Below are positions 4,837 through 19,262 of a stretch of DNA of 64,000 nt, piece by piece. The stretch is from Maribacter sp. HTCC2170. GTDB taxonomy: Bacteria; Bacteroidota; Bacteroidia; Flavobacteriales; Flavobacteriaceae. The translations under genes were made by a program, and so were the position numbers. Below the pieces are notes generated by a model. The model searched no databases. It had not been told where the DNA came from and worked only from the letters and a program-made list of their open reading frames with translations. The stretch lies in assembly GCF_000153165.2 (NCBI RefSeq), contig NC_014472.1:1361501-1425500 (forward strand), written 5' to 3'. Every line of letters starts with the position of its first letter. Position 1 is the stretch's first letter.

Positions 4837-4881
4837 TTGACGTTTAAAAAACATTAAATTAACATTGGTTTTGGTTATTTG
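4837..4881 (+). promoter_or_regulatory. Candidate Pho box and promoter upstream of phosphate porin
   Basis: Three 8-mers at exact 11-bp spacing read TTGACGTT (4837), AAAACATT (4848) and TTAACATT (4859). A TTTG-ending -7-like element (4874-4881, GTTATTTG) starts 12 bp after the last ACATT. Spacing and direct-repeat architecture match PhoB boxes; the motif itself is deduced here by comparing five phosphate promoters in the window. Confidence 0.6.
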
Positions 4882-4904
4882 CACCGATAAAACTAAATAA
4901 CACA

Positions 4905-6110
4905 ATGAAAACCAAACTCATTACTTTAGCATTGATCCTTTCAGGGATCATCACTTCATTTTCACAAGAAACGAATGCGCCTAAATTTGGAAAAGGCCTT
5001 TTCAACCTCGTTGGTCAAGATAGCACTTGGACCATGAAAGTTGCTGCACGTATGCAATTTCTGTCCACCAGTACTTGGGATGAAGGAGCAGATGGAGGTT
5101 GGGTTAATCCCAATCAAAACTTTTTAGTACGCAGAGCACGATTGAAATTCAATGGTTTCGCCTACACTCCTAAACTTAAATACAAATTGGAACTAGGGTT
5201 GTCCAACAGGGATATTTCAGGAGCTTCAGCTTTCACAAGTAATGCACCAAGATATATTCTTGATGCGGTAGTCATGTGGAACTTTCATGAAAACTTTGAA
5301 TTGTGGGTTGGGCAGACCAAATTACCCGGCAATATAGAACGTGTTATATCTTCAGGGAACCTACAGCAAGTAGACCGTTCTTTGTTGAACAGTCGATTTA
5401 ATATTGATCGCGACCTAGGTATTCAACTGAGACACCATTTTAACTTATCCGATAAATTCTTGGTTCGTGAAAAGTTTGCCATTTCACAGGGTGAAGGAAG
5501 AAACATAACAAGTGGTAATATTGGTGGACATCAATATACTGCGAGATTAGAACTTTTGCCTTTTGGCAAGTTCGAAAGCAAAGGAGAATATAGCGGCAGT
5601 GATTTAAAAAGGGAAGAAAAACCAAAATTAATGCTTGCCGCAACCTATGATATCAATAAAAATGCAGTAAAGAACAGAAGTAATCAGGGGTCCTATATGA
5701 TCAATGACACAGGATTTTTTGAGACCGACGTCAATACTTTCTTTTTGGATGCCATGTTCAAATACAATGGCTTTTCATTAATGGGGGAATATGCAAAAAG
5801 GGATGCAGATGATCCTTATGCTAAAAACACTGATGGTTCTTTAACAGGTGCTGAAGTTCAGGTAGGAGATGCATTGAACCTACAAGCAGGTTATCTATTT
5901 CCTAGCAATTGGGAGGTCTCCGCAAGATATACCGATATCAACCTTGATGAAGTCATTACAGGAAGAGATCCTGTAGAGCAATATACCTTAGGGCTTTCAA
6001 AATTTATTGTAGGGCATAAATTGAAAGTTCAAACCGATTTGAGCTACCTATCAGTTGATGGAAGCAATGATGAATTAATGTACCGCTTGCAATTGGATGT
6101 ACATTTCTAG
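4905..6110 (+). CDS. Phosphate-selective porin, OprO/OprP family
   Basis: The 401-aa protein has a signal peptide (about residues 1-20, cleavage after SFS/Q). Its body alternates amphipathic strands and ends in an aromatic residue (QLDVHF), as expected of an outer-membrane beta-barrel. LVRRARLKFNGFAYTPKLKY and the central WVGQTKLPGNIERV segment are typical of the porin O/P family (PF07396). The family lets phosphate or polyphosphate cross the outer membrane. It stands directly upstream of pstSCAB-phoU, with a terminator between, and has its own Pho-box-like promoter, so induction by phosphate limitation is likely. The substrate is inferred from family and neighbours. Confidence 0.9.
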   Translation: MKTKLITLALILSGIITSFSQETNAPKFGKGLFNLVGQDSTWTMKVAARMQFLSTSTWDEGADGGWVNPNQNFLVRRARLKFNGFAYTPKLKYKLELGLSNRDISGASAFTSNAPRYILDAVVMWNFHENFELWVGQTKLPGNIERVISSGNLQQVDRSLLNSRFNIDRDLGIQLRHHFNLSDKFLVREKFAISQGEGRNITSGNIGGHQYTARLELLPFGKFESKGEYSGSDLKREEKPKLMLAATYDINKNAVKNRSNQGSYMINDTGFFETDVNTFFLDAMFKYNGFSLMGEYAKRDADDPYAKNTDGSLTGAEVQVGDALNLQAGYLFPSNWEVSARYTDINLDEVITGRDPVEQYTLGLSKFIVGHKLKVQTDLSYLSVDGSNDELMYRLQLDVHF

Positions 6111-6132
6111 AAAACGCATTCTTTTAAATGAT

Positions 6133-6162
6133 AAAAAGAGGGCCATTATAGCCCTCTTTTTT
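6133..6162 (+). terminator. Rho-independent terminator after the porin gene
   Basis: A-tract plus stem GAGGGC/GCCCTC with a 7-nt loop and a run of six T (6133-6162), 22 nt after the porin stop. It separates the porin transcript from pstS. Confidence 0.85.
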
Positions 6163-6189
6163 CGTTTGTGTTGATTTAATGTAAGTACG

Positions 6190-6267
6190 TTAACACATTA
6201 ATAACCTTAAAGTAGTAGTTTCTTCATTTTGCCTTAACTCCAACTTAACCTTCCCATTATTTCTTTG
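6190..6267 (+). promoter_or_regulatory. Candidate Pho box and promoter of pstS
   Basis: TTAACTCC (6234) and TTAACCTT (6245) are 11 bp apart, and a TTTCTTTG -7-like box (6260-6267) begins 12 bp after the last ACCTT, the same phase as in the porin promoter. A further 11-bp pair, TTAAC (6190) and ATAAC (6201), lies upstream. The element is assigned by comparison with the other phosphate promoters here. Confidence 0.5.
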
Positions 6268-6289
6268 TATAAAATAAATTAGACAAAAA

Positions 6290-7249
6290 ATGAAAAGAAT
6301 ATTGGTTATTGCGTCATTGGCATTGGCAATAGTTGCATGCGGTGATAAAAAAGAAAAAAAAGGTGGTGATGCTTCACAAGAAACTACATCTCTTTCCGGA
6401 ACAATCAAAGTGGATGGATCCAGTACTGTATTTCCGATTACTGAAGCAGTAGCAGAAGAATTTAGAGGAGTACAACCCAAGGTGAAAGTTACCGTTGGCG
6501 TTTCAGGTACTGGTGGCGGGTTCAAGAAATTTTCTCGAGGAGAAACCAATCTTTCAAACGCCTCAAGACCAATCAAAGACAAAGAAAAAGCGGCCTGCAA
6601 AGAAAACAACATCAAGTATTTAGAGTTGGAAGTTGCTTATGATGGTCTTGCAGTTATTGTTCATCCTGAAAATAACTGGGTAGACCATTTCACAGTGGAA
6701 GAACTTAAAAAGATTTGGGAACCTGCCGCTCAAGGAAAAGTTATGAAATGGAATCAAATTCGACCGGAGTGGCCAAATGAGGAAATACATTTGTTCGGCC
6801 CTGGAGTAGCCTCCGGTACATATGATTATTTCACTGAAGCTGTTGTTGGAAAAAGCGGTTCAAGTAGAGGGGATTTTACAGCAAGTGAGGACGACCACGT
6901 TTTGGTGCAGGGAATTGCTGGTGATAAATATGCTTTGGGCTTCTTTGGCCTTGCTTACTACGCTGAAAACAAGGATCGATTACAGCTGATTGGAGTTCAT
7001 AATGGCGAATCAATTGTAAAACCATCATTGGAAACCGTGAAAAACGGAACTTACAAGCCACTTTCCAGGCCTTTGTTCATCTATGTGAACAGCACCTCCG
7101 TTTCCGCTCCCGAGGTTATTGAGTTTGTAGATTTTTATATAGACAACGCAGGCGAACTGTCCAAAGATGTTGGATATATTCCGCTTCCTGATGAAAATTA
7201 CAAAGTGCAAAAAGAGAATTTCCAAACTTTTGTTGAAAGTAACAAATAA
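6290..7249 (+). CDS. pstS: Phosphate ABC transporter substrate-binding lipoprotein PstS
   Basis: The 319-aa periplasmic phosphate-binding protein has lipobox IVAC (Cys17), so it is lipid-anchored. Phosphate-binding signatures are visible: GSSTVFPITEAVAEEF near residue 44, GVSGTGGGFKKF and NASRPIKDKE, and later GPGVASGTYDYF. It captures phosphate for PstCA-PstB. It is the first gene of pstSCAB-phoU. The 69-nt gap to pstC holds a strong hairpin, which may let pstS be expressed above the membrane subunits. A Pho-box-like promoter lies just upstream. Confidence 0.96.
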   Translation: MKRILVIASLALAIVACGDKKEKKGGDASQETTSLSGTIKVDGSSTVFPITEAVAEEFRGVQPKVKVTVGVSGTGGGFKKFSRGETNLSNASRPIKDKEKAACKENNIKYLELEVAYDGLAVIVHPENNWVDHFTVEELKKIWEPAAQGKVMKWNQIRPEWPNEEIHLFGPGVASGTYDYFTEAVVGKSGSSRGDFTASEDDHVLVQGIAGDKYALGFFGLAYYAENKDRLQLIGVHNGESIVKPSLETVKNGTYKPLSRPLFIYVNSTSVSAPEVIEFVDFYIDNAGELSKDVGYIPLPDENYKVQKENFQTFVESNK

Positions 7250-7263
7250 ACAAAGGTTGGTTT

Positions 7264-7300
7264 AGGAAAGCCAGATGCCTTCTCGGGCATCTGCTTTCCT
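7264..7300 (+). terminator. Strong hairpin between pstS and pstC (attenuator or mRNA stabiliser)
   Basis: AGGAAAG-C-CAGATGCC pairs with GGCATCTG-CTTTCCT around a short loop, giving about 15 base pairs with one bulge. It ends in CTTAATAG rather than a T-run, so it is more likely a processing/stabilising hairpin or partial attenuator than a complete terminator. pstC begins 18 nt later. Confidence 0.6.
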
Positions 7301-7318
7301 TAATAGAATTAAAGTTCG

Positions 7319-8197
7319 ATGCGAAAGATAAAAGAGTTAATCATTGAGAAATCGCTCTTATCAAGTGCCCTTGTAACCATTGCGGTTACAGTTGGAATCA
7401 TTCTTGTGCTGTCTATTGAGGCAGTGCGCTTCTTTAGTGAAGTTTCCATTATCCATTTCTTTACCGATTCACAATGGACTCCCCTCTTTACCGAAAAACA
7501 TTTTGGCATTTTACCATTGCTTTCTGGCACCCTTCTCACATCATTCATCGCTATAGCGTTTGCACTGCCCATTGGCCTGTCAATAAGCATTTATTTAAGC
7601 GAATATGCGCCTAAAAGTTTTCGAAAATCGGTTAAACCTCTTCTAGAATTGTTGGCAGCTGTCCCTACAGTGGTTTATGGCTTCTTTGCCCTAGTGGTAG
7701 TAACTCCCTTCTTGCAAGAAATAATTCCAAATCTATCAGGTTTCAACTCTTTATCGGCAGGATTGGTCATGGGAATAATGATTATACCCTATATCTCTTC
7801 AATTAGCGAAGATGCTTTGCATTCGGTCCCGGACTCACTTAGGGAAGCTTCTTATGGTATGGGATCAACAAAATTTCAGACTGCATTTAAGGTCATTGTT
7901 CCAGCTGCCTCCTCAGGTATAATTGTCTCCATTATACTGGCGATTTCAAGAGCTATTGGTGAAACAATGATTGTAGCTGTAGCGGCTGGCCAACAACCTA
8001 GGTTGACTCTTGACCCCACGGTGCCAATAGAAACTATTACAGCTTATATTGTTCAGGTCAGCTTAGGTGATGTACAACATGGTTCGCTCGAGTACCGTAC
8101 AATTTTTGCTGCAGGAATTACTTTATTCGCTTTCACATTTTTGTTGAACACCCTGAGCTATAGAATCAGGAAAAAATATCAAGAAAAATATGAATAG
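7319..8197 (+). CDS. pstC: Phosphate ABC transporter permease PstC
   Basis: The 292-aa inner-membrane permease has about six hydrophobic helices and the binding-protein-dependent transport fold. The segment LPIGLSISIYLSEYAPKSF followed by LLAAVPTVVYGFFALVVVTP is diagnostic of PstC/PstA. The cytoplasmic EAA-like loop is SLREASYGMGSTKFQTAFKV, which contacts the ATPase. It pairs with PstA to form the channel. Its stop overlaps the pstA start by 8 bp, indicating translational coupling. It sits second in pstSCAB-phoU after the intergenic hairpin. Confidence 0.95.
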   Translation: MRKIKELIIEKSLLSSALVTIAVTVGIILVLSIEAVRFFSEVSIIHFFTDSQWTPLFTEKHFGILPLLSGTLLTSFIAIAFALPIGLSISIYLSEYAPKSFRKSVKPLLELLAAVPTVVYGFFALVVVTPFLQEIIPNLSGFNSLSAGLVMGIMIIPYISSISEDALHSVPDSLREASYGMGSTKFQTAFKVIVPAASSGIIVSIILAISRAIGETMIVAVAAGQQPRLTLDPTVPIETITAYIVQVSLGDVQHGSLEYRTIFAAGITLFAFTFLLNTLSYRIRKKYQEKYE

Positions 8198-9044
8198 TCT
8201 TATAAAAAACAGGCTCAAGGATAATGCATTTAAGTATTGGGGCATTTTTTGTACTGCAATTGGTTTGGTACTGCTTTCTGTATTCATAGGCGACATTTTA
8301 ATTGATGGTCTACGACGAATAGACTGGGGCTTTATTTCAAGTTTACCTTCGAGAAAACCAGAAAAATCTGGGATCTATACAGCTCTAATGGGCAGTATCT
8401 GGATTTTACTTCTAACAACAGTCATAGCATTTCCTTTGGGCGTAGCTGCTGGTATTTACTTAGAAGAATATGGTAAAAAGAACAGATTTGCCGGAATTCT
8501 GGAAATCAACATTTCAAATTTGGCAGGAGTTCCTTCGATTATATACGGTCTCTTGGGACTTGAGGTATTTGTAAGAATAATGAATTTGGGCGCCAGTGTA
8601 CTTGCCGGGAGTTTAACACTTTCATTGTTAATACTTCCTATTGTCATTGTAGCAACAAGAGAAGCCATAAAAGCCGTCCCAACTACAGTTAAGGATGCTT
8701 CTTATGCACTTGGAGCATCAAAATGGCAAACAATTTGGCATCAGATACTACCTGCCTCAAGCGGTGGTATTCTTACTGGCGTAATATTGGCACTTTCTAG
8801 GGCCGTTGGTGAAACCGCGCCTTTGATTGTTGTTGGAGCCTTGGCTTACGTTCCATTTGCTCCAGAAAGTCCAATGGATGAATTTTCTGTACTACCAATC
8901 CAAATTTTCAACTGGATTTCGAGACCCCAACACGGTTTTATTGAAAATGCAGCCGCCGCTATCATAATCTTGTTATTAATCACATTTATAATGAACGGCA
9001 TCGCAGTTTATTTTAGAAATAAGTGGCAAAAGAAATGGAAATAA
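8190..9044 (+). CDS. pstA: Phosphate ABC transporter permease PstA
   Basis: The 284-aa inner-membrane partner of PstC starts inside the last codons of pst[19 protein letters not shown] followed by [20 protein letters not shown] marks the PstA half, and [19 protein letters not shown] is the EAA-like loop for PstB. The C-terminal part has [18 protein letters not shown], common in PstA proteins. Five to six helices are apparent. Gene order and overlaps support one transcript with pstC, pstB and phoU. Confidence 0.95.
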
Positions 9045-9046
9045 TT

Positions 9047-9862
9047 ATGGAAGAACTTGTTAAAGAGCCTAAGATAGTGGATAAAATAATTGATCCCTCA
9101 CTAAAGAGAAAGGTAAAAATCGAAGTCACTGGTTCCAAAGTATGGTATGGTGATTTTCAAGCTATTAAAGGGATCGATATGTGCATAAAAGCCAATTCTG
9201 TAACGGCATTTATTGGGCCTTCAGGTTGTGGAAAATCTACTTTTCTTCGTTTATTCAATAGAATGAACGATTACGTGGATAGCTATAAAATGGAAGGAAA
9301 GATTAAAATTGATGACAAAAACATTTACAAGAAAAAAGTAAATGTTGAAGAACTTCGTAAAGAAGTCGGCATGGTCTTCCAAAAACCCAACCCCTTTCCA
9401 AAATCCATCTTTGACAATGTAGCTTATGGTTTAAAAATCCAAGGGATAAACGACAAAAAGTTCATACGCGAGAGGGTAGAAAAAGCTTTAAAACAAGCTG
9501 ACCTTTGGAATGAGGTCAAAGACAATCTGAAAAAATCTGGTCTTGCTTTGTCTGGAGGACAACAACAACGTTTATGCATTGCACGAACTTTAGCAGTAGA
9601 ACCATCCATTATCTTGATGGACGAACCAACCTCAGCACTGGACCCCATCTCAACAGCCAAAATCGAAGATCTTATTTTTGAATTGAAAAAGAAGTACACC
9701 ATAGTTATTGTTACTCATAATATGCAACAGGCCAGTAGAATCAGTGATTATACAGCATTTTTCTATATGGGTGAACTTATAGAATTTGGAAAGACAAAAA
9801 CAATTTTCACGAACCCAGATAAAAAACAGACCGAGAATTACATAACAGGTCGATTTGGCTAA
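9047..9862 (+). CDS. pstB: Phosphate ABC transporter ATP-binding protein PstB
   Basis: ABC ATPase of about 271 aa that drives phosphate import through PstCA. It shows Walker [11 protein letters not shown]-loop [20 protein letters not shown], signature LSGGQQQR, Walker [12 protein letters not shown] and the H-loop VTHNM. The FQKPNPFP segment is specific to PstB. Three starts are possible: GTG 9023, ATG 9035 and ATG 9047. I chose 9047 because it follows the pstA stop by 2 nt and keeps the whole domain, but the earlier ATG cannot be excluded. phoU follows after 11 nt. Confidence 0.95.
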
Positions 9863-9873
9863 AATAAAAAGAC

Positions 9874-10536
9874 ATGGATAACGCAGAATACCAGCAAGAA
9901 TCTTTGAACCAATCGGCATTTGACATGCTTAACTTATGCACATCGCAATTGGAAAAATCAATTGAGGCTTTTGTAAACCACGATAGTGATCTATCAGAAG
10001 AAGTTATACATAAAGAGAATAGAGTCAATGCAATGGATATCAAAATCGAAAAGGATTGCGAAAAATTTCTGGCCTTATTTACCCCAGTAGCAGTTGATCT
10101 TCGTTTTGTTATGGCCATTCTAAAGATTAATTCTGATTTAGAAAGAATTGGAGACCACGCCTTTAACATTGCCAATTATGTGGTGGAAGAAGACAAAGCT
10201 ATACCCTCACAATTATTTGAGGCAGTGAACTTTGACAAAATGATGGAAACGATTAAGCTTATGTTGAATCATATTACCATTGCCTTTGAAGACAAAGACG
10301 TGAAAATAGCACGGAAAGTATTCAAAAAGGACAAGGTTCTTGACAAAATCAATATTAAATCGTTCCAAATTCTGGAGATGGAGATTCAAAAAGACCAAAC
10401 CCTAATCAAGGAAGCCTTGTTCTTGTTTTCTGTTATAAAAAAGTTGGAACGTGTTGGAGACCTGATCAAGAACATAGCCGAGGAAATTATTTTTTATACC
10501 GATGCAGAAATCCTGAAACACAAAAGAAAAAAATAG
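9874..10536 (+). CDS. phoU: Phosphate signalling/transport regulator PhoU
   Basis: The 220-aa all-helical protein has two PhoU repeats. It carries the metal-binding patterns of the family, LKINSDLERIGDHAFNIANY in the first half and IKKLERVGDLIKNIAEE in the second (E/DxxxD motifs). PhoU links Pst transport to the PhoR kinase and damps Pho-regulon expression. It is the last gene of pstSCAB-phoU. No phoR or phoB is present in this window, so the signalling partners must be elsewhere. Confidence 0.95.
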   Translation: MDNAEYQQESLNQSAFDMLNLCTSQLEKSIEAFVNHDSDLSEEVIHKENRVNAMDIKIEKDCEKFLALFTPVAVDLRFVMAILKINSDLERIGDHAFNIANYVVEEDKAIPSQLFEAVNFDKMMETIKLMLNHITIAFEDKDVKIARKVFKKDKVLDKINIKSFQILEMEIQKDQTLIKEALFLFSVIKKLERVGDLIKNIAEEIIFYTDAEILKHKRKK

Positions 10537-10569
10537 GGGTTTTTCCAAAATTCAACAGCTCCTTTTAAT

Positions 10570-10625
10570 TTAACGCTTTCATAATGTTTACTTAACATTG
10601 ATTGTCCAAACATAAATTATGTTTA
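10570..10625 (+). promoter_or_regulatory. Candidate Pho box and promoter of the first PiT gene
   Basis: TTAACGCT (10570), ATAATGTT (10581) and TTAACATT (10592) are spaced by 11 bp. TATGTTTA at 10618-10625, one base off the Bacteroidota TAnnTTTG -7 consensus, starts 23 bp (12+11) after the last ACATT. If this is the promoter, the PiT mRNA has a leader of nearly 190 nt. Confidence 0.5.
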
Positions 10626-10819
10626 CGACGTTACTTTCAACAGTTATAAATTGTTCATAAATCATTAGTTCAAATTGGATTAGATTGTCAATCTGTATAA
10701 TTACATATTGATGATCAGAATGTAACACTGATTCGAATGTGCATGTTTTACTGATATAAGTCATATTTTTTATCAACATATTTCGTCAATTTTATATCTT
10801 ATACCAACTAAATTATATT

Positions 10820-13087
10820 ATGGACAATATTTACTTTTTAATGATTATAGCGCTTGCCGTATTAGCAATCGCAGACCTTGTCGTAGGTGTTAGTAATGAT
10901 GCCGTGAATTTTTTGAATTCCGCCCTAGGTTCTAAAGCCATTTCTTTTAAAACCATCATGATTGTTGCCAGTTTAGGTATTTTTTGTGGTGCTGTTTTCT
11001 CTAGTGGACTTATGGAAGTTGCCCGGAAAGGAATTTTTGTTCCTGGGGAGTTCATGTTCAATGAAATCATGATCATATTCATGGCCGTGATGATTACCGA
11101 CATTCTTCTGCTTGATTTTTTCAACACTCTTGGGATGCCAACTTCAACAACGGTTTCCATCGTTTTTGAACTTTTGGGAGCAGCTGTAGCCATGGCATTG
11201 ATTAAGATTGGTGCCGCAGGAGGTTCGTTCTCTGAAGTCGTTAATTATATCAATACAACTAAGGCAACAGAGATTATCTTGGGTATTTTACTTTCGGTGG
11301 TCGTCGCCTTCTCAGTAGGGGCATTGGTGCAATATGTATCACGACTGTTACTCTCCTTTAATTTTGAAAAGAAAGCCAAATGGGTAGGTGCTGTATTTGG
11401 AGGATTTGCTTTAGCAGCAATCACCTATTTTATCTTTATCAAAGGATTAAAAGGCACAGATTATTATGCTGAAATAAAACCTATGATTGAGGGTAAGACT
11501 GCTATCATCGTAACCATTAGTTTTGTGATATGGAGCTTGTTGTCATATTTAGTAGTAGCGGTGTTTAAAAAGAACATTTACATACTCATTATTGGCGTGG
11601 GTACATTTGCGTTGGCATTGGCATTTGCAGGCAATGATTTGGTGAACTTTATAGGTGTGCCTATTGCAGCTTATCAATCTTATGAGGCATGGACCGCTTC
11701 TGGTGTCCCAGCAACAGAATTTGCCATGGACGTTCTTGGAAAAAAAGTTCCGACTCCGACCTTTTTCCTTTTAGTTGCTGGTTTGGTTATGGTCTTGACC
11801 TTATGGTTCTCAAGTAAAGCCAAAAGAGTGGTAAAGACTTCAATTGATTTATCTAGTCAAAGTGACACAAAAGAACGGTTTAACCCTAATTTTTTGTCTA
11901 GAAACTTAGTTCGTATTACCATGTTGGCAGCGAAATACACTGCCACAGTAATACCAAATTCTATTCAAACTAAGATTGAAAACCAATTTCAAAAACCTGT
12001 AATTGAACTCCCTAAAGGTAAGACGCATGAGCTACCAGCTTTTGATTTAGTGCGGGCTGCTGTAAACCTGATGGTCGCAAGTGTATTGATCTCAATTGCA
12101 ACTTCGATGAAATTGCCATTATCAACTACTTATGTAACCTTTATGGTTGCGATGGGTACTTCTTTGGCAGATAGGGCCTGGGGAAGTGAAAGTGCGGTTT
12201 ATAGAGTTGCTGGAGTCCTTAACGTAATCGGGGGATGGTTCTTTACGGCAATCAGTGCTTTTATTGCGGCAGGAACGGTTGCGTATCTAATTCATTTAGG
12301 AGGTGGCGCAATGATTTCCGTTCTATTACTATTGGCGGTATTACTATTGGTAAGAAACTATATTAGCCACACGAAGAAAACCCGCGAGGTAAAGGCCGAA
12401 GACAGTTTAAATAAAGCCGAAAGTCAATCAATCCACGGTGTTATTGAGGAAAGTGCCGATAATATCTCAAAAGCATTGAAAAGGGTAAGTAAAATAAACC
12501 AGGTCACAATAAATGGATTGATAAATCAAGATTTAGATGGCCTTAAAAAAGCCAAAAACAATGTAGTTAAATTAGAAAATGAAATTGAGGACTTACAGAA
12601 CGATATTTTCTATTTCATTAAAGACCTTGATGACTCTTATTTAGGAGCCAGTAAGTTTTATATTGACGTCATCGGCAGTATACAAGATGTTGCCCAATCA
12701 TCAAGTTTGATCGCAAAAGTGAGCCATAAGCATGTAAACAATAATCATAAGAAGCTAAAGAAAAAACAAGCAGAAGAATTATTGGACATCAACGACAAGT
12801 TGGTTCATCTTTTTGGTGAAATCAGAAAGATTTTTGATGCACGTACATTCCACGAAATTGTTCCTGGAATACTTGAAGAAAAACAGACCTTGTTAAATAG
12901 TGTTCAAGAATCTATTCAAAAACAGGTTGTACGTACCAGAACTGAAGAATCAAGTCCAAAAAACACAACACTTTACTTTAGTATTTTGTTGGAAACACAG
13001 GATTTGATTAAAGCGAATATGAATATTCTCAACTTGTATTTTGAAGAACACAACAATACGAATATGAGTAAAGAGTTGACTGAATAG
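10820..13087 (+). CDS. PiT-family inorganic phosphate transporter with PhoU-like C-terminal domain
   Basis: The 755-aa inner-membrane protein belongs to the PiT (PF01384) phosphate/cation symporter family. The two signature segments are VGVSNDAVNFLNSALGSKAIS near the N-terminus and FAGNDLVNFIGVPIAAYQSY in the middle. About ten or more helices are followed, from roughly residue 520, by a cytoplasmic helical tail (SADNISKALKRV...) resembling a PhoU/DUF47 domain. A paralogue at 16974-19262 is highly similar along its full length, including the end (RTRTEESSPKNTTLYFS). The tail may regulate transport by phosphate status; that is inference. Pho-box-like repeats upstream suggest low-phosphate control. 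Confidence 0.92.
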   Translation: MDNIYFLMIIALAVLAIADLVVGVSNDAVNFLNSALGSKAISFKTIMIVASLGIFCGAVFSSGLMEVARKGIFVPGEFMFNEIMIIFMAVMITDILLLDFFNTLGMPTSTTVSIVFELLGAAVAMALIKIGAAGGSFSEVVNYINTTKATEIILGILLSVVVAFSVGALVQYVSRLLLSFNFEKKAKWVGAVFGGFALAAITYFIFIKGLKGTDYYAEIKPMIEGKTAIIVTISFVIWSLLSYLVVAVFKKNIYILIIGVGTFALALAFAGNDLVNFIGVPIAAYQSYEAWTASGVPATEFAMDVLGKKVPTPTFFLLVAGLVMVLTLWFSSKAKRVVKTSIDLSSQSDTKERFNPNFLSRNLVRITMLAAKYTATVIPNSIQTKIENQFQKPVIELPKGKTHELPAFDLVRAAVNLMVASVLISIATSMKLPLSTTYVTFMVAMGTSLADRAWGSESAVYRVAGVLNVIGGWFFTAISAFIAAGTVAYLIHLGGGAMISVLLLLAVLLLVRNYISHTKKTREVKAEDSLNKAESQSIHGVIEESADNISKALKRVSKINQVTINGLINQDLDGLKKAKNNVVKLENEIEDLQNDIFYFIKDLDDSYLGASKFYIDVIGSIQDVAQSSSLIAKVSHKHVNNNHKKLKKKQAEELLDINDKLVHLFGEIRKIFDARTFHEIVPGILEEKQTLLNSVQESIQKQVVRTRTEESSPKNTTLYFSILLETQDLIKANMNILNLYFEEHNNTNMSKELTE

Positions 13088-13107
13088 TTGCGAATTAAAC
13101 TTCATAA

Positions 13108-13141
13108 ACAAAAGCCCTTCAATGAAGGGCTTTTGTTTTAA
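13108..13141. terminator. Bidirectional terminator between convergent phosphate transporter genes
   Basis: ACAAAAGCCCTTC pairs with GAAGGGCTTTTGT around a 4-nt AAT(G)-type loop, with T-runs on both strands. It serves the PiT gene (+) and the Na/Pi gene (-), whose stop codon lies at its right edge. Confidence 0.88.
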
Positions 13142-14901
13142 CTGGCCTTTTCAAGTAATGAATCTTTTTCGCCATATAGTAGTTCAGCAACCTGTATCAA
13201 TTTCTTAATTGTATCATTAACATTATCATTATCGTTCACTAATGAAGATGCCATTTCAACGGTAATCAAACCATCTCTTATCAACTTATTTATTGAATCA
13301 TTTCCCTGGCGCATGGCCTCTTTAGCTTCTTGCTTAAGAAGAATCAGCTTTGAATAATACTGTTCTTTCTCGTCCTGTGTTCTAAACAAATAAATAACCC
13401 TTAACACCTTGGCTATTTTTTTTCGAAATTTATCATACTCCTTACTAATGTATTCGTTATCAGAATCTAAATAAAAAGAAACATTTTTATTCAATTCTCT
13501 CACATCACGAATTATCTCTACCATTTTACGGTTTGCAACAATTATCTCAGATATTTGATTATTCTGCTTGTTGGACAGTTTTAATCTACTTTGAGCTGTA
13601 GTAGCATATTTAATGATTTGACCATATATGGTCTTTACCTTAGTATAATAGAGTTCCTCTACATCAGTATTCATATCTTCTTGAGATCTCTTTACGACTT
13701 TCTTAAGCTTAAGATTTGACTTTATATCTTCACGATGAATATTCAATGCATGGGCAACAATTTCAAAAATTGCCTTTTTAAATAGATATTTAGATTCCTT
13801 TCTCAATGCCCAAATGGCCGAAGCAGGGAATTCCAAAACAGATTCAGTCAAGAATTTAGGTTCACTAATATCTTTTTCTTCATCTTTTTCCTTGAATACC
13901 TTAATCAATAGTTTTTCCATTTTTTTAATGAACGGAATCATAAGAAGAACCCCTATTATGTTGAATATCGTATGAAATAGTGCAAGTTTTAGGGTGTAAT
14001 CAGTAGTGGAAATTCCAAAGGAATCTGATAATATATTCACTAAATCAGCTAAAGGGTAAATAAAACCCAGTGCTACCAACCCTGTTACCATGTTAAAAAT
14101 CAAATGGGCACCGGCCAATCGTCTCCCTGCCACATTTGAGCTTAATGACCCTAAAACTGCGGTAATCGTTGTTCCCACGTTTGCACCAATAGCTAATGCC
14201 AAAGCATTTTCATAATCTATTTGCCCTGCGGATAAGGCCGTTAAAATTAGAGCCAATGTGGCACTACTTGATTGAAGAATGGTTGTTATAAGAATACCAA
14301 CGCCGGTATAGATTACAACCCCTAAAAAACCTGGGACAGCATATTGGGTCAAATCAATGTATTCCTTAAAGACATCGAACCCCTCTTTCATATAATGTAC
14401 ACCTAGAAAGAAAAAACCTAATCCCGCCAATACATTTCCTATTCCTTTTAATGAAGCCTTCTTTTGAAATGAAAAAATTATTCCGAAAACCAACATGGGC
14501 ATCGCAAGTGCTGAAATCTTTATTTTCAATCCGAAACCTGCAACAAGCCAGGCTGTTGCAGTAGTACCAATATTGGCACCAAAAATAAGTCCTAACCCGC
14601 CTGCCAAGGATATTAAACCTGCACTAATAAATGAAATGGTAATTACCGATACCAGGGAACTGGATTGAATTAAAGCAGTTACTAATGCCCCAACCGAAAT
14701 ACTCTTATATAGCTTATCTGTTGCTTTTTTAAGTAGATTTTGAAGTGGTCCTTTTGTGAATACCCTAAAACCTTCTTCGAGCATGATCATTCCAAAAAGT
14801 AGTATTGCCACACCAGCCGCAATAGTCTTAAAATTTGGATTATAAATCAGTACAATGGCCAGTGCCAATAAGAAAAGATAAAACAGAGATTTTCTGAACA
14901 T
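13138..14901 (-). CDS. Na/Pi-cotransporter family protein with PhoU-like C-terminal domain (NaPi-1)
   Basis: The 587-aa inner-membrane protein has two inverted Na/Pi-cotransporter (PF02690) repeats, each with the QSSS motif and a GANIGTT or GANVGTT motif: QSSSLVSVITISF/GANIGTTATAWLV and QSSSATLALILTA/GANVGTTITAVLG. A cytoplasmic helical tail from about residue 350 is PhoU-like, with TDVEELYYTKVKTIYGQIIK and REDIKSNLKLKKVVKRSQED. It lies 50 nt downstream of a closely related gene (NaPi-2) and is probably co-transcribed with it, since no separate Pho box is visible. Direction of phosphate movement cannot be read from sequence, because some homologues export phosphate. Confidence 0.9.
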   Translation of the reverse strand: MFRKSLFYLFLLALAIVLIYNPNFKTIAAGVAILLFGMIMLEEGFRVFTKGPLQNLLKKATDKLYKSISVGALVTALIQSSSLVSVITISFISAGLISLAGGLGLIFGANIGTTATAWLVAGFGLKIKISALAMPMLVFGIIFSFQKKASLKGIGNVLAGLGFFFLGVHYMKEGFDVFKEYIDLTQYAVPGFLGVVIYTGVGILITTILQSSSATLALILTALSAGQIDYENALALAIGANVGTTITAVLGSLSSNVAGRRLAGAHLIFNMVTGLVALGFIYPLADLVNILSDSFGISTTDYTLKLALFHTIFNIIGVLLMIPFIKKMEKLLIKVFKEKDEEKDISEPKFLTESVLEFPASAIWALRKESKYLFKKAIFEIVAHALNIHREDIKSNLKLKKVVKRSQEDMNTDVEELYYTKVKTIYGQIIKYATTAQSRLKLSNKQNNQISEIIVANRKMVEIIRDVRELNKNVSFYLDSDNEYISKEYDKFRKKIAKVLRVIYLFRTQDEKEQYYSKLILLKQEAKEAMRQGNDSINKLIRDGLITVEMASSLVNDNDNVNDTIKKLIQVAELLYGEKDSLLEKAS

Positions 14902-14951
14902 GCTATTATTTATATATAATTAGTTTAACTATTCCAATGGTAATAAGTACT

Positions 14952-16730
14952 CTAAAGATTAACTGTTTCTTCTTGCACGCTTTCTACACCTCCATTTTCT
15001 AACAAAGAATCCTTTTCGCTATAAAGTAGTTCCGCGACATCAATCAATTTTTTGGTAATATTATTTACATTGTCATTATCATTCACTAATGAGGATGCCA
15101 TGTCAACAGTAATCAAATCCTCTCGGATGAGTTTATTTATAGATTTATTGGATTGATTAGCGCCTTCCTTAGCTGCTTCTTTAAGTTTCAAAAGCTTTAC
15201 GTAGTATTGTTCTTTGTCTTCCTTAGTTCTAAACAAATAAATAACGCGCAAAGTCTTGATTATCTTTTTGCGGAATTTATCATATTCTTTACTTACGTGT
15301 TTATTTTCAGAGTTTAAGTAAAAAGAAACGTTTCTGCCAAGTTCTCTTACATCATTAACAATTTCAACCATTTTACGGTTTGCTATTTTGATTTCCGAAA
15401 CCCGTTGGTTTTGTATTTCATTCAACTTTAAGGCAGTTTGCGCTGTTGTAGCATACTTTATTATCTCGCCATATATTTTTTTCACCTTGGTATAGTATAG
15501 TTCACGCACATCCGTTTTAAAATCTTCTTTTGACCTTTTGACTATTTTCTTGAGTCCAACATCGGAAGTAACATCTTCACGATGTATGTTCAATGCATGT
15601 GAAACTATTTGAAAAACAGCATTTTTATAAAGATATTTTGATTCATTAACCAATGAGATAAGTAAAGTTTCAGGATATTTTAAAACCTTTTCATTCAAGA
15701 ATTTTGGCTCATCAATTTCTTTTGAAGGCTCAACTCTTGCTTGGACTAATCTTTCAACAACAGCTGCAATTGGTTTAATGAACCAAACCAAAACAAACGT
15801 ATTGATAATATTAAAGCTGGTATGAAAAAGTGATAATGCAACAGGTATGGCCGCGGCACTCATATAAGGTGATTCAGACCCTGTTAAACTAACAAGCCAT
15901 TCTACAAACCTCAAGAATGGATAGAACAACAACAGAACCCAGATTACCCCAATTACATTGAAAATAAGATGTGCCCGTGCTGTTCGTTTTGCGTGAAAAT
16001 TCGCCACCAGAGCTGCTAAATTAGCAGTAATAGTTGTTCCTATATTTTCTCCCAAAACCATTGCCGCCGCAAGTGGAAAAGGAATCCATCCTTGAGCGGT
16101 CATAATCAATGTAAGGGCCATAGTAGCACTTGAGGATTGAATTATTACTGTCAAGATAGTTCCGATTGCAAGAAAAAGAAGCACAGACCAAAACCCTAAA
16201 TCAGTATATCTGCTTAAAAATTCAAGTATTTCCGGGTTTTGTCTGATATCAGGAACAGCATCTTTTAAAAATTGTAGTCCTATGAACAAAACTGCAAATC
16301 CGATTATAAACCCTCCCCAATTCTTTAAATTTTCTTTTTTTGCAAACGTAAATAAGAATCCAAGTCCAACCAACGGCAGCGCAATCACACTCATACTAAC
16401 TTTAAATCCTAAAATAGTAATCAACCATGCGGTAATGGTTGTACCTATATTGGCACCCATGATTACACTTATCGATTCCATTAATGTGAGTAAGCCCGCG
16501 TTTGAAAAGCTTACAACCATTAATGTAGTAGCCGATGAAGATTGAATAACCGAGGTAATAAAAAAACCGGTGAAAATCCCTAAAAATCTATTGGAGGTCA
16601 TTGTCGCCAAAATCTTCCTCATTTTATCTCCAGCAAGGCTCATTAAAGCGTCGCTCATCACCTTCATCCCAAATAAAAACAGTCCTAAAGACCCAAATAA
16701 TTGCAATATTTCGTATAACCCGTAATCCAC
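14952..16730 (-). CDS. Na/Pi-cotransporter family protein with PhoU-like C-terminal domain (NaPi-2)
   Basis: This 592-aa paralogue of NaPi-1 has the paired QSSSATTLMVVSF/GANIGTTITAWLI and QSSSATMALTLIM/GENIGTTITANLA motifs. Note GENIGTT in the second repeat where NaPi-1 has GANVGTT. The C-terminal PhoU-like helical tail is strongly conserved with NaPi-1 (TDVRELYYTKVKKIYGEIIKYATTAQ, split here as family marker). The start is a GTG giving MDYGLYEILQ then GLFLFGMKVMSDAL, a normal Na/Pi N-terminus. The Pho-box-like triple repeat lies only about 20-45 bp upstream, so the mRNA leader would be very short. It is first in a two-gene operon with NaPi-1 and divergent from PiT-2. Confidence 0.9.
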   Translation of the reverse strand: MDYGLYEILQLFGSLGLFLFGMKVMSDALMSLAGDKMRKILATMTSNRFLGIFTGFFITSVIQSSSATTLMVVSFSNAGLLTLMESISVIMGANIGTTITAWLITILGFKVSMSVIALPLVGLGFLFTFAKKENLKNWGGFIIGFAVLFIGLQFLKDAVPDIRQNPEILEFLSRYTDLGFWSVLLFLAIGTILTVIIQSSSATMALTLIMTAQGWIPFPLAAAMVLGENIGTTITANLAALVANFHAKRTARAHLIFNVIGVIWVLLLFYPFLRFVEWLVSLTGSESPYMSAAAIPVALSLFHTSFNIINTFVLVWFIKPIAAVVERLVQARVEPSKEIDEPKFLNEKVLKYPETLLISLVNESKYLYKNAVFQIVSHALNIHREDVTSDVGLKKIVKRSKEDFKTDVRELYYTKVKKIYGEIIKYATTAQTALKLNEIQNQRVSEIKIANRKMVEIVNDVRELGRNVSFYLNSENKHVSKEYDKFRKKIIKTLRVIYLFRTKEDKEQYYVKLLKLKEAAKEGANQSNKSINKLIREDLITVDMASSLVNDNDNVNNITKKLIDVAELLYSEKDSLLENGGVESVQEETVNL

Positions 16731-16748
16731 CCTAATACAATTTAAACT

Positions 16749-16778
16749 ATTGTTAAATTAATGTAAATTTAATGTAAA
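16749..16778 (-). promoter_or_regulatory. Candidate Pho box upstream of the Na/Pi operon
   Basis: Read on the minus strand: TTTACATT, TTTACATT and TTAACAAT at exact 11-bp spacing (ends at 16778, 16767, 16756). This is the clearest triple repeat in the window. No convincing -7 box was found before the GTG at 16730. Confidence 0.6.
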
Positions 16779-16905
16779 CTACAAGTAAAATCATCAAAGA
16801 TTTTTTTACCCCATACCGTTGTCAAAAGCTCTTTTTCAGTTGATTGCCAAAAAATATTCCAAGAATTGAAATGTAATTGAGTTAAATAGATTATTGCCCC
16901 AATTG

Positions 16906-16950
16906 ATAACATTTAGGTTACATTCATTTATCGAAATTAAAGTACGTTTG
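16906..16950 (+). promoter_or_regulatory. Candidate Pho box and promoter of the second PiT gene
   Basis: ATAACATT (16906) and GTTACATT (16917) are 11 bp apart. A perfect TAnnTTTG element (TACGTTTG, 16943-16950) starts 23 bp (12+11) after the second ACATT. No TTG-type -33 element is seen, consistent with an activator replacing it. Confidence 0.62.
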
Positions 16951-16973: not shown

Positions 16974-19262
16974 ATGGATAATATTTATCTTCTAATGATC
17001 ATCGCGTTGGCGGTTCTTGCCATAGCTGATTTAGTTGTAGGCGTAAGTAATGATGCCGTGAACTTTCTTAACTCGGCCATTGGCTCAAAAGCGATTTCAT
17101 TTCGAACAATTATGATCGTCGCAAGTGTAGGAATCGCATGCGGAGCAATTTTTTCAAGTGGAATGATGGAGGTTGCCAGAAAAGGAATATTCAACCCTGG
17201 TGAGTTCATGTTCAATGAAATCATGTTCATCTTCATGGCAGTTATGATAACCGATATACTTCTATTGGACTTCTTCAACACACTGGGCATGCCCACTTCT
17301 ACAACTGTTTCTATCGTATTTGAACTTTTGGGTGCTGCTGTTGCTATGTCAATGATTAAAATTTGGAATGCTGGAGGTGAAATGGCCGAACTGGTAAATT
17401 ATATAAACACCTCAAAAGCATTTCAAATAATCATGGGAATTCTTCTCTCGGTAGTTTTTGCTTTTACTATTGGTGCTTTGGTACAATGGATAACAAGATT
17501 ATTGCTTTCCTATAATTTTGAAAAAAAGCCTAAATGGGTTGGTTCAATATTTGGTGGCGTTGCCCTTTCGGCCATTACTTATTTCATTTTAATGAAAGGT
17601 ATAAAAGGAACTGCATATGCCAGTCAAAGCTTTCATATTATAGGCGGCCTGACCATTAAAGACTTTCTTGAAGATCAAGTCTGGAGCCTTATTCTTGTAA
17701 ATTTTGTGATATGGTCATTTTTATCTTTTATACTCATGACCTTGGCTAATATCAACATTTATAAGCTGATTATCGGCGTTGGCACATTCGCCTTGGCACT
17801 CGCATTTGCTGGTAACGACCTGGTGAATTTTATTGGTGTTCCCATTGCAGCATTTCAGTCATACGAGGCTTGGAATGCCTCTGGAATTCTAGCATCGGAA
17901 TTCAGTATGGACATACTTGCCAAAAAAGTACCCACACCAACATTATTACTGTTCATTTCTGGAATGATAATGGTGGCAACTTTATGGTTTTCGAAAAAAG
18001 CAAGATACGTTGCTGATACAGAGATTAATCTTTCAAGGGAAGGTGAAGCCAAAGAACGTTTTCAACCCAATGTACTTTCAAGGGGAATAGTAAGACTTTC
18101 TGTTGCCCTATCTAGGATTTCATTGCTTTTCCCTAAGACGTTTGCGAATAAAATAGATGCGCAGTTTGAGAGACCTGTTATTGTACTTTCAAAGGAGAAA
18201 ACCTATGAAATGCCTGCCTTTGATATGGTTAGGGCTGCAGTCAATTTAACTGTGGCGGGTATATTGATTTCTATCGCTACCTCTTATAAATTACCTTTAT
18301 CAACTACATATGTCACATTCATGGTGGCAATGGGTACTTCTTTGGCCGATAGGGCCTGGGGAGCAGAAAGTGCTGTTTATCGGGTGGCAGGGGTTTTAAA
18401 TGTAATTGGTGGTTGGTTCGGTACTGCGGTAATCGCATTTATTGTTGCCGGTACGATCCTAACCCTAATTAGTTTTGGCCAAGGTACGGCAATCGCCATT
18501 CTATTATTTATAGCCATCTTATTGTTGGCAAGAAATTATATCTCATATAATAAAAAATCAAAGGAAATAAAGGCGGAAGACAGTTTAAGAAAAGCCGAAA
18601 GTAGTTCTATTCAAGGAGTAATTGAGGAAAGTGCGAATAATATTGCTAGGGTAATCAAAAGAACAAACAAGATTTATACTAACACCATCAATGGTCTTGC
18701 AAGGCAGGATTTGGATCAATTAAAAAAGAATAAAAAGCAGGTTTCCAAACTTACAGGCGAAATAGATGAATTACGCGACAACCTTTTTTATTTTATCAAA
18801 AACCTTGATGAATCCAGTATTGGGGCAAGTGATTTCTATATCACCATTTTAGGCTATTTAACCGATATTGTTCAGTCGTTAGGGTACATCGCCAAAATAA
18901 GCCATAAACATATCAATAACAATCACAAGAAATTAAAATATAACCAGATCAAGGAATTAAAACAGTTAGATTTTGAATTGGAGGATCTACTCGGTAAGAC
19001 CAAAAAAGCGTTTGACAACAGGTCATTTGAGGAAATTGGAGTAATACTTAAAAGAAAACAAGAATTATTTAATCTAGTAACTGAAAAAATTCAAAAACAA
19101 GTAACAAGAACACGAACTGAAGAATCAAGCCCAAAGAATACCACATTATATTTTTCTTTGCTTTTAGAAACAAAAGATCTAATGACCGGTACTATGAACT
19201 TGATAGAATCATACTACAATGAACACGATAGTAGTATAGAGCCAACACGGGCGGAAGAATAA
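16974..19262 (+). CDS. PiT-family inorganic phosphate transporter with PhoU-like C-terminal domain (paralogue)
   Basis: The 762-aa paralogue of the 10820-13087 product starts almost identically (MDNIYLLMIIALAVLAIADL) and has both PiT signatures, SNDAVNFLNSAIGSKAIS and FAGNDLVNFIGVPIAAFQSY. A short extra loop around residues 215-235 (ASQSFHIIGGLTIKDF region) distinguishes it. The C-terminal PhoU/DUF47-like helical tail begins near residue 530. It probably imports phosphate with protons or sodium at the inner membrane. It is divergent from NaPi-2 with a shared 243-bp regulatory region that carries Pho-box-like repeats for both directions. Confidence 0.92.
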   Translation: MDNIYLLMIIALAVLAIADLVVGVSNDAVNFLNSAIGSKAISFRTIMIVASVGIACGAIFSSGMMEVARKGIFNPGEFMFNEIMFIFMAVMITDILLLDFFNTLGMPTSTTVSIVFELLGAAVAMSMIKIWNAGGEMAELVNYINTSKAFQIIMGILLSVVFAFTIGALVQWITRLLLSYNFEKKPKWVGSIFGGVALSAITYFILMKGIKGTAYASQSFHIIGGLTIKDFLEDQVWSLILVNFVIWSFLSFILMTLANINIYKLIIGVGTFALALAFAGNDLVNFIGVPIAAFQSYEAWNASGILASEFSMDILAKKVPTPTLLLFISGMIMVATLWFSKKARYVADTEINLSREGEAKERFQPNVLSRGIVRLSVALSRISLLFPKTFANKIDAQFERPVIVLSKEKTYEMPAFDMVRAAVNLTVAGILISIATSYKLPLSTTYVTFMVAMGTSLADRAWGAESAVYRVAGVLNVIGGWFGTAVIAFIVAGTILTLISFGQGTAIAILLFIAILLLARNYISYNKKSKEIKAEDSLRKAESSSIQGVIEESANNIARVIKRTNKIYTNTINGLARQDLDQLKKNKKQVSKLTGEIDELRDNLFYFIKNLDESSIGASDFYITILGYLTDIVQSLGYIAKISHKHINNNHKKLKYNQIKELKQLDFELEDLLGKTKKAFDNRSFEEIGVILKRKQELFNLVTEKIQKQVTRTRTEESSPKNTTLYFSLLLETKDLMTGTMNLIESYYNEHDSSIEPTRAEE

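Follow-up and report, generated by a model that had tools for sequence, protein, structure and literature searches.

The stretch of DNA analysed here (the window) comprises 64,000 nucleotides, positions 1361501–1425500 of the 3.87-Mb one-contig genome of Maribacter sp. HTCC2170, and carries a run of phosphate genes preceded by direct repeats with a period of 11 base pairs (bp). On the plus strand, a Porin_O_P gene (PF07396; 4905–6110) is followed by pstS (PBP_like_2; 6290–7249), identified from Pfam and from relatives, and by two BPD_transp_1 permeases, an ABC ATPase and PhoU, which by their order are pstC-pstA-pstB-phoU (7319–10536). Further along lie a first gene of the PHO4 family (PF01384), here called PiT-1 (10820–13087, plus strand), two Na_Pi_cotrans genes on the minus strand (Na/Pi; 13138–16730) and a second PHO4 gene, PiT-2 (16974–19262, plus strand), all of them assigned with Pfam. 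An original prediction, made from the sequence of the window, held that repeats precede the porin, pstS, PiT-1, Na/Pi and PiT-2 genes and together form a candidate flavobacterial Pho box, that is, an operator for PhoB.

All five sets of repeats are present, and laying the promoters out in 11-mers confirms their register. The porin promoter (4837–4866, plus strand) contains units at 4837 (TTGACGTT, a weak one), 4848 (AAAACATT) and 4859 (TTAACATT), found both by the layout and by the matrix scan described below, with a TTTG at 4878–4881, 19 bp past the start of the last unit. The same two methods place the proximal units of the pstS promoter at 6234 (TTAACTCC) and 6245 (TTAACCTT; together 6234–6252, plus strand), where a TTTG at 6264–6267 again lies 19 bp past the start of the last unit. 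A distal pair of units in this promoter, absent from the original prediction (TTAACACA at 6190 and ATAACCTT at 6201, scoring 8.2 and 7.5 bits; 6190–6208, plus strand), is in register with the proximal pair at an offset of 44 bp upstream and has a similar counterpart in a same-genus relative (L035). At PiT-2, scan and layout give units at 16906 (ATAACATT) and 16917 (GTTACATT; 16906–16924, plus strand), and the TTTG at 16947–16950 is 30 bp past the start of the last unit. A −7 box ending in TTTG had been proposed for three promoters and is found at all three, the TTTG always being kept and the TA sometimes missing (porin GTTATTTG, pstS TTTCTTTG, PiT-2 TACGTTTG). The Na/Pi array (16749–16778, minus strand) consists of three strong units with 5′ ends at 16778 (TTTACATT), 16767 (TTTACATT) and 16756 (TTAACAAT), flanked by weak units at 16789 and 16745, and has no phased TTTG. 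Directly before the Na/Pi start, TAAATTGT at 16737–16744 (minus strand) fits by eye the TAnnTTGY box (SM5) described in Flavobacterium psychrophilum (PMC9723704), though its position is shifted by 3 bp from the phase of the array.

The PiT-1 repeats (10570–10599, plus strand) begin at 10570 (TTAACGCT), 10581 (ATAATGTT) and 10592 (TTAACATT). The −7 box with one mismatch that had been proposed for this promoter is seen as a TTTA 30 bp past the start of the last unit, but PiT-1 scores 0 when array and phased TTTG are taken together. Its repeats reach 7.0 bits, a background value that places them 22nd in the two-unit list of the window, and they are not conserved in a second genome of the same genus (G032). 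We have therefore dropped PiT-1 as a candidate Pho box.

The weight matrix used for these scores was built from 50 units of 21 pstS promoters, with the source genome and G032 excluded, although a training promoter from the genus of the window is possibly still among the pstS records (such as L053); a TWAC core was demanded when the training units were collected. The consensus of the unit is TTAACATT. Matches of at least 13 bits to the two-unit matrix number six in the window, and each lies in one of four promoters (Na/Pi, PiT-2, porin or pstS), which a matrix from other genomes thus recovers; three of the six have a TTTG in phase. Six matches of at least 13 bits are likewise present in 400 kb sampled from the source genome, and beside these no phosphate gene was recognised by eye from translations of open reading frames (ORFs). 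A phased TTTG accompanies none of the matches of at least 10 bits in this sample, with 1 found at 9 bits and 2 at 8 bits. When array and phased TTTG are summed in a single score, pstS (29.1), porin (21.1) and PiT-2 (14.2) rank first to third among 360 ORF-called genes of the source genome, 52 of which lie inside the window, and the genes scoring at least 10 are 3 of 360, each a phosphate gene; Na/Pi, like PiT-1, scores 0. This summed score was devised after the promoter inferred to be that of Fjoh_2478 (see below) had been laid out by eye, and the adjacency and step counts given below use a similar score.

The bare pair TTWACATT-N3-TTWACATT, with up to three mismatches, occurs 584 times genome-wide against 644 for a reversed-pattern control and so is not enriched, whereas the array with its phased TTTG places phosphate genes at the top of the ranking just given. 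Specificity resides in the array plus the phased −7 box; repeats on their own, lacking the TTTG, are not rare. Exact TTWACAT pairs are three in the genome, one of which is that of Na/Pi. The other two were rejected as candidates: one (L001) lies between genes that by eye are alkaline-phosphatase-like and TetR-like, on a strand that faces the start of neither, and the other (L003) faces a small ORF without visible phosphate link.

The same arrangement was sought in relatives. PstS relatives were gathered from 60 genomes of the family (10 with a match) and from further genomes, of which 80 loci were kept, 38 being taken as Bacteroidota and 40 as members of other phyla; the remaining two, L084 and L132, did not enter the counts, nor did L039, a duplicate of L059, or L044. 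The pstS set consists of the 200 bp upstream of 47 Bacteroidota genes and includes near relatives, among them several Lutibacter, so that its members are not independent; it spans several orders, with Flavobacteriaceae, Flammeovirgaceae, Chitinophaga, metagenome-assembled genomes of Bacteroidales and others, gut Bacteroides not being among them. The porin and PiT sets come from 30 genomes each (29 genera), with the source genome and G032 included. TAAC words in the 47 pstS promoters are spaced by 11 bp in 23, by 22 in 10, by 33 in 10 and by 44 in 5, as against a mean of 0.3–0.5 and a maximum of 3 promoters under dinucleotide shuffles. The distance from TAAC to TTTG peaks at 18, 29, 40, 51, 62 and 73 bp, and a single TAAC–TTTG phase holds in 31/47 pstS, 27/30 porin and 23/30 PiT promoters, where the shuffles give means of 2.4, 1.8 and 1.6 and maxima of 6, 8 and 5, respectively. 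An array of at least 9 bits together with a phased TTTG is present in 26/30 porin and 22/30 PiT upstream regions (source genome included), compared with 0/30 on the reverse strand and 0/30 inside the gene for porin and PiT each. Without the TTTG requirement, 9 bits are attained by 6 porin and 3 PiT arrays on the reverse strand and by 0 and 1 within the gene, again out of 30 each. In G032 there are arrays at the porin, pstS and PiT-2 genes and at its Na/Pi gene.

Several further features of these promoters may be recorded here. TAAC words are also found 5 bp (5/47) and 6 bp (2/47) apart in pstS promoters, a half-step within the 11-bp period exemplified by TTAACAATTACTTAAC and by promoters such as L053, L068, L073, L086 and L094. 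A second array lies about 290 bp upstream of the porin array in a same-genus genome (L280:579-612), and a leader near CAGCGACAAAAACTAATA past the −7 box is conserved in most genomes of the porin set (L198–L227). In the PiT promoters (L153–L182) the −7 region is mostly GATATTTGCAAA, not TAnnTTTG, and in several of them the 11-bp gap ahead of it reads AAACAC(T) by eye.

In the 40 pstS upstream regions from other phyla, TAAC pairs are spaced by 11 bp in 10 and by 22 bp in 9, while the TTTG phase is seen in 3/40 (raw counts; the shuffles cover the Bacteroidota sets). The 11-bp direct repeat is of a widespread kind, close to the cyanobacterial box discussed below, and in this sample of 47 versus 40 pstS promoters its locking to TTTG is a feature of the Bacteroidota alone. 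The element is not limited to flavobacteria.

Where the array stands relative to the −7 box differs between gene families. The last strong unit is adjacent, starting 19 bp before the TTTG, in 22 of the 26 porin promoters and is one 11-bp step further away in 21 of the 22 PiT promoters; pstS promoters pass in 27 of 47 cases, 17 of them adjacent and 10 further by one to three steps. These counts describe two preferred placements: adjacency in porin and most pstS promoters, and a shift of 11 bp away from the −7 box in PiT promoters. In F. psychrophilum TAnnTTTG spans −12 to −5 of the transcript start (PMC9723704), so that the adjacent unit would lie at approximately −27 to −20 and the next at approximately −38 to −31, over the −33 region. 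The idea that the repeats stand in place of a −33/−35 element is supported for pstS, porin and PiT-2 by their register, which both the matrix from other genomes and the orthologous promoters bear out. The evidence leaves it evenly balanced whether Bacteroidota PhoB sites are modular arrays that may stand at different distances from the −7 box provided these differ by whole 11-bp steps, such that helical register and not contiguity would rule the activator and units might be skipped if the phase is kept.

The low-phosphate regulon of Flavobacterium johnsoniae provides an independent test for the arrays in the form of its induced genes (PMC8115612). In a genome taken to be that of this species (G340), positions 574470–581978 match Fjoh_0541–0545 in gene order and Pfam content, PF14905 of Fjoh_0545 not being seen. 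Values in the published Table 1, read as log2, are 8.02 for Fjoh_0545, 9.91 for Fjoh_0546, 12.50 for Fjoh_2478 and 11.56 for Fjoh_4889, and 95 transcripts exceed a log2 of 4 at low phosphate in the published data (PMC8115612). Scanning 658 kb of G340 at preset settings gave 14 rows at 11 places, three of which are the promoters of 0545, of 0546 and of the 0546 homologue taken for 4889; the other eight are not recognisable Table 1 genes, and 2478 and 0542 were missed. Further Table 1 loci (phytase, the PUS clusters, PlcP and 3414), sought at their estimated positions among large ORFs and FII homologues, were not identified. With a second score, applied to 492 genes, ranks 1–6 go to 0542, 4889, 0545, 0546, a MarR gene and 2478, and six genes score at least 16 compared with an average of 0.125 for shifted phases. 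Because the 2478 promoter had been laid out by eye before the second score was built, its rank does not count as independent evidence, and this gene was itself identified by 35–38% identity to a PhoX-like protein and by a MauG-like neighbour, with no Pfam match. Taken with the contrary cases given below, the low-phosphate genes of this genome lend further but mixed backing to the central idea of a Pho box. The MarR-family gene (L353; G340 5908763–5909224) has a 17.7-bit phased array, lies near an FIII-like lipoprotein gene and is not seen in the published Table 1 (PMC8115612).

A PhoB search of the source genome put three full-length OmpR-family regulators on top. The candidate regulator, L046, is at 2011139–2011822 of the source genome, outside the window, and adjoins a trmB-like gene; an orthologue is present in 57/60 genomes of the family. 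In 4/38 Bacteroidota loci (L068, L071, L078 and L086; some of the 38 have short flanks) its orthologue (59–62% identity) and a kinase are found within 5 kb of pstS, and in three of these four a phased array stands upstream of phoB itself. The order in L086 is trmB, a 244-aa ORF, phoR, phoB, porin, pstS, pstC, pstA, pstB, phoU and Na/Pi, the names being given by eye from translations, with tblastn for phoB and phoR and Pfam for the porin. The G340 orthologue (74%) sits where the published PhoB, Fjoh_0544, is expected, and regulator and kinase together correspond to Fjoh_0543/0544 in Pfam content and gene order. The DNA-binding part of the regulator matches the E. coli PhoB effector-domain chains 1gxp and 3t72 among 55 chains, neither of them being the best. 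The model of the Bacteroides-type PhoB, NF053854, gave one match at the chosen E-value in 148 genomes of the phylum and none above its cut-off, and the promoter sets therefore hold no Bacteroides-type pst promoter. Upstream regions of phoB orthologues were analysed at 30 of the 57 loci (L249–L278) and contain an array of at least 9 bits on the opposite strand in 28/30 and on the phoB strand in 3/30. Of the divergent genes, read in 11 loci, 9 encode by eye small proteins with type IX secretion system (T9SS) sorting tails (two ORFs confirmed by Pfam in L046), and the gene divergent from phoB in G340 encodes the TonB-dependent transporter, induced at low phosphate, that is taken for Fjoh_0545.

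In our view the repeats are most probably a Bacteroidota form of the Pho box, the operator of a PhoB-type regulator, and are phase-locked to a TTTG promoter. As a sequence feature this Bacteroidota Pho box is well supported, since the array, its phase to the −7 box and its conservation across genera are read directly from the DNA, and it is probable as an operator of PhoB. Of the five promoters first proposed, those of pstS, porin and PiT-2 have the full arrangement, that of Na/Pi has the array only, and that of PiT-1 falls away. We infer the identity of the binder, its dependence on phosphorylation, its contact with sigma and induction in the organism of the window, with binding, phosphorylation and sigma contact taken by analogy from E. 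coli. On phosphate shortage, a PhoR-like kinase would phosphorylate the PhoB-type regulator, monomers of which would bind head to tail on TTAACA-type units spaced by 11 bp. The bound units would occupy the region of the −33 element of the primary sigma factor, and PhoB would thereby recruit polymerase to a weak TTTG-type −7 box. Some −7 boxes of the window have the TTTG without the TA, which would agree with weak promoters that depend on an activator. In Bacteroides fragilis, PhoB binds the pstC promoter in an electrophoretic mobility shift assay, and only trace pstC expression is seen at low phosphate without PhoB (PMC3547664).

A number of observations weigh against this interpretation. The Na/Pi array is without a phased −7 box, and among upstream regions of 13 Na/Pi homologues (both source-genome genes included; L195 and L197 left out) arrays of at least 9 bits occur in 4 and a phased TTTG in none. 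The array score is not reached by 20/47 pstS promoters, at least two of these genes directly following a porin. Upstream of PhoX genes (PF05787; set without L231, L244, L245 and L248), the TTTG is in phase in 1/17, and the array of at least 9 bits is present in 7/17 on the forward and 2/17 on the reverse strand; five PhoX-like genes chosen after the PhoX table had been seen, and hence post hoc, are in phase in 4/5, with CCP_MauG as the next gene in L242 (tested) and an antiporter in L246. In the genome taken for F. johnsoniae, the 0542 porin has the best array of the 492 genes (27.0) yet Fjoh_0542 (OprP porin) is reported as not induced at low phosphate (−1.3, adjusted p 0.25; PMC8115612), and conversely two induced genes, Fjoh_0541 (5.42) and Fjoh_0544 (3.06; PMC8115612), lack a forward array and rank 207th and 320th by the second score. 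As the porin is the second-best case of the window, its induction at low phosphate is therefore in doubt. Finally, L046 is below the curated PhoB cut-offs (212.4 of 296.2 bits for TIGR02154 and 207.5 of 270 bits for NF053854), and a second regulator of the source genome, L045, scores 212.7 and 197.2 with these models. The two fit about equally well, so that the sequence family cannot single out L046, and the PhoB name rests on the gene neighbourhood and on the correspondence with F. johnsoniae.

An alternative is that some other member of the OmpR family, such as a general envelope or redox regulator, acts through the arrays, with phosphate genes as only some of its targets. Besides L046, at least two full-length regulators of this family are encoded in the source genome, and the PhoB model fits one of them just as well; the best array of the inferred F. 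johnsoniae genome is that of the uninduced porin. Riemerella anatipestifer is a Bacteroidota species. Its PhoP gave 583 peaks upstream of 764 genes in DNA affinity purification sequencing (DAP-seq), the motif was likened to ArcA, and named targets such as the Bat operon, dnaG and a TonB-dependent receptor lie outside the phosphate genes (PMC9603813). Set against this, low phosphate strongly induces four of the six genes with the highest array scores in the genome inferred to be F. johnsoniae, and a phoBR-type pair is found near pst genes and carries the array in 3/4 cases. We regard a different regulator as an unlikely explanation. A far less probable proposal is that the 11-bp phasing of TTAAC reflects DNA structure, such as AT-rich tracts, curvature or an UP-like contact, that aids polymerase with no dedicated activator involved. 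In its favour are the AT-rich composition and helical phasing of the arrays and the degeneracy of some units, and the constant C of the unit is no counter-argument because a TWAC core was required in training; but array plus phased TTTG is absent from the reverse strand and from gene interiors, and the score does not pick ordinary genes, the 3/360 that reach 10 all being phosphate genes. Chance matches in AT-rich intergenic DNA, to which the unenriched bare pair (584 versus 644) and the background score of PiT-1 might point, are the least credible account of all, as array and phase are common to most orthologous promoters of 30 genomes and 29 genera (26/30 porin, 22/30 PiT) and G032 has arrays at its porin, pstS, PiT-2 and Na/Pi genes: conservation refutes chance for porin, pstS and PiT-2, and chance likely remains the explanation for PiT-1.

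Phosphate boxes of a similar kind occur well beyond the Bacteroidota. The Bacillus subtilis PhoP box is TTAACA-like, with a consensus and spacing near those of the Bacteroidota unit, and acts with the usual sigma-A −10 element. The Pho box of E. coli PhoB likewise consists of head-to-tail 11-bp direct repeats adjoining a core promoter element (PMC4415409). The Bacteroidota consensus, TTAACATT, differs from the CTGTCAT unit of E. coli, as had been noted, and a review finds that the Pho box consensus varies between species, so that CTGTCAT is not defining (PMC4415409). The E. coli boxes lie 10 bp upstream of the −10 element (PMC1906773), whereas the adjacent Bacteroidota unit ends 7 bp before TAnnTTTG and the second class sits one 11-bp step further. 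Very close is the cyanobacterial SphR Pho box, CTTAACCT, composed of 8-bp units with a 3-bp linker (PMC1906773), which has a near-identical TTAAC-core unit and the same 11-bp period and is likewise found upstream of phosphate genes. It differs in that the Bacteroidota units are phase-locked to TTTG and their consensus favours TTAACATT over CTTAACCT. Given the closeness of the SphR box and the 11-bp TAAC repeats upstream of pstS outside the Bacteroidota (10/40), a unit of the TTAAC type is in itself no novelty. The R. anatipestifer PhoP motif, TTTAACA, obtained by DAP-seq, shares the core letters and belongs to a PhoP/PhoR pair; it was called ArcA-like, and the terms 'Pho box' and 'direct repeat' are absent from the main text of that report (PMC9603813). 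Likewise, the main text on the F. johnsoniae regulon contains none of the terms 'Pho box', 'promoter' and 'motif' (PMC8115612). Putative Pho boxes were earlier proposed computationally at plcP clusters of marine bacteria, flavobacteria being among the organisms (PMC4796936); they may include flavobacterial genes, and the accessible part of that report presents them without sequence, spacing or −7 phase and without naming the organisms that carry them. In a mostly open-access literature, in part accessible as excerpts, we found no earlier description of a Bacteroidota Pho box in the form of an array in register with a −7 box.

Bacteroidota use an unusual primary sigma factor, for which, to our knowledge, few activator-site rules have been described. 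The register seen here bears on how activators engage the Bacteroidota polymerase and, if true, helical register to the TTTG promoter would be a rule for activators working with this sigma factor. A fixed register of the operator to the −7 box would also make the Pho regulon readable from genome sequence across much of the Bacteroidota.

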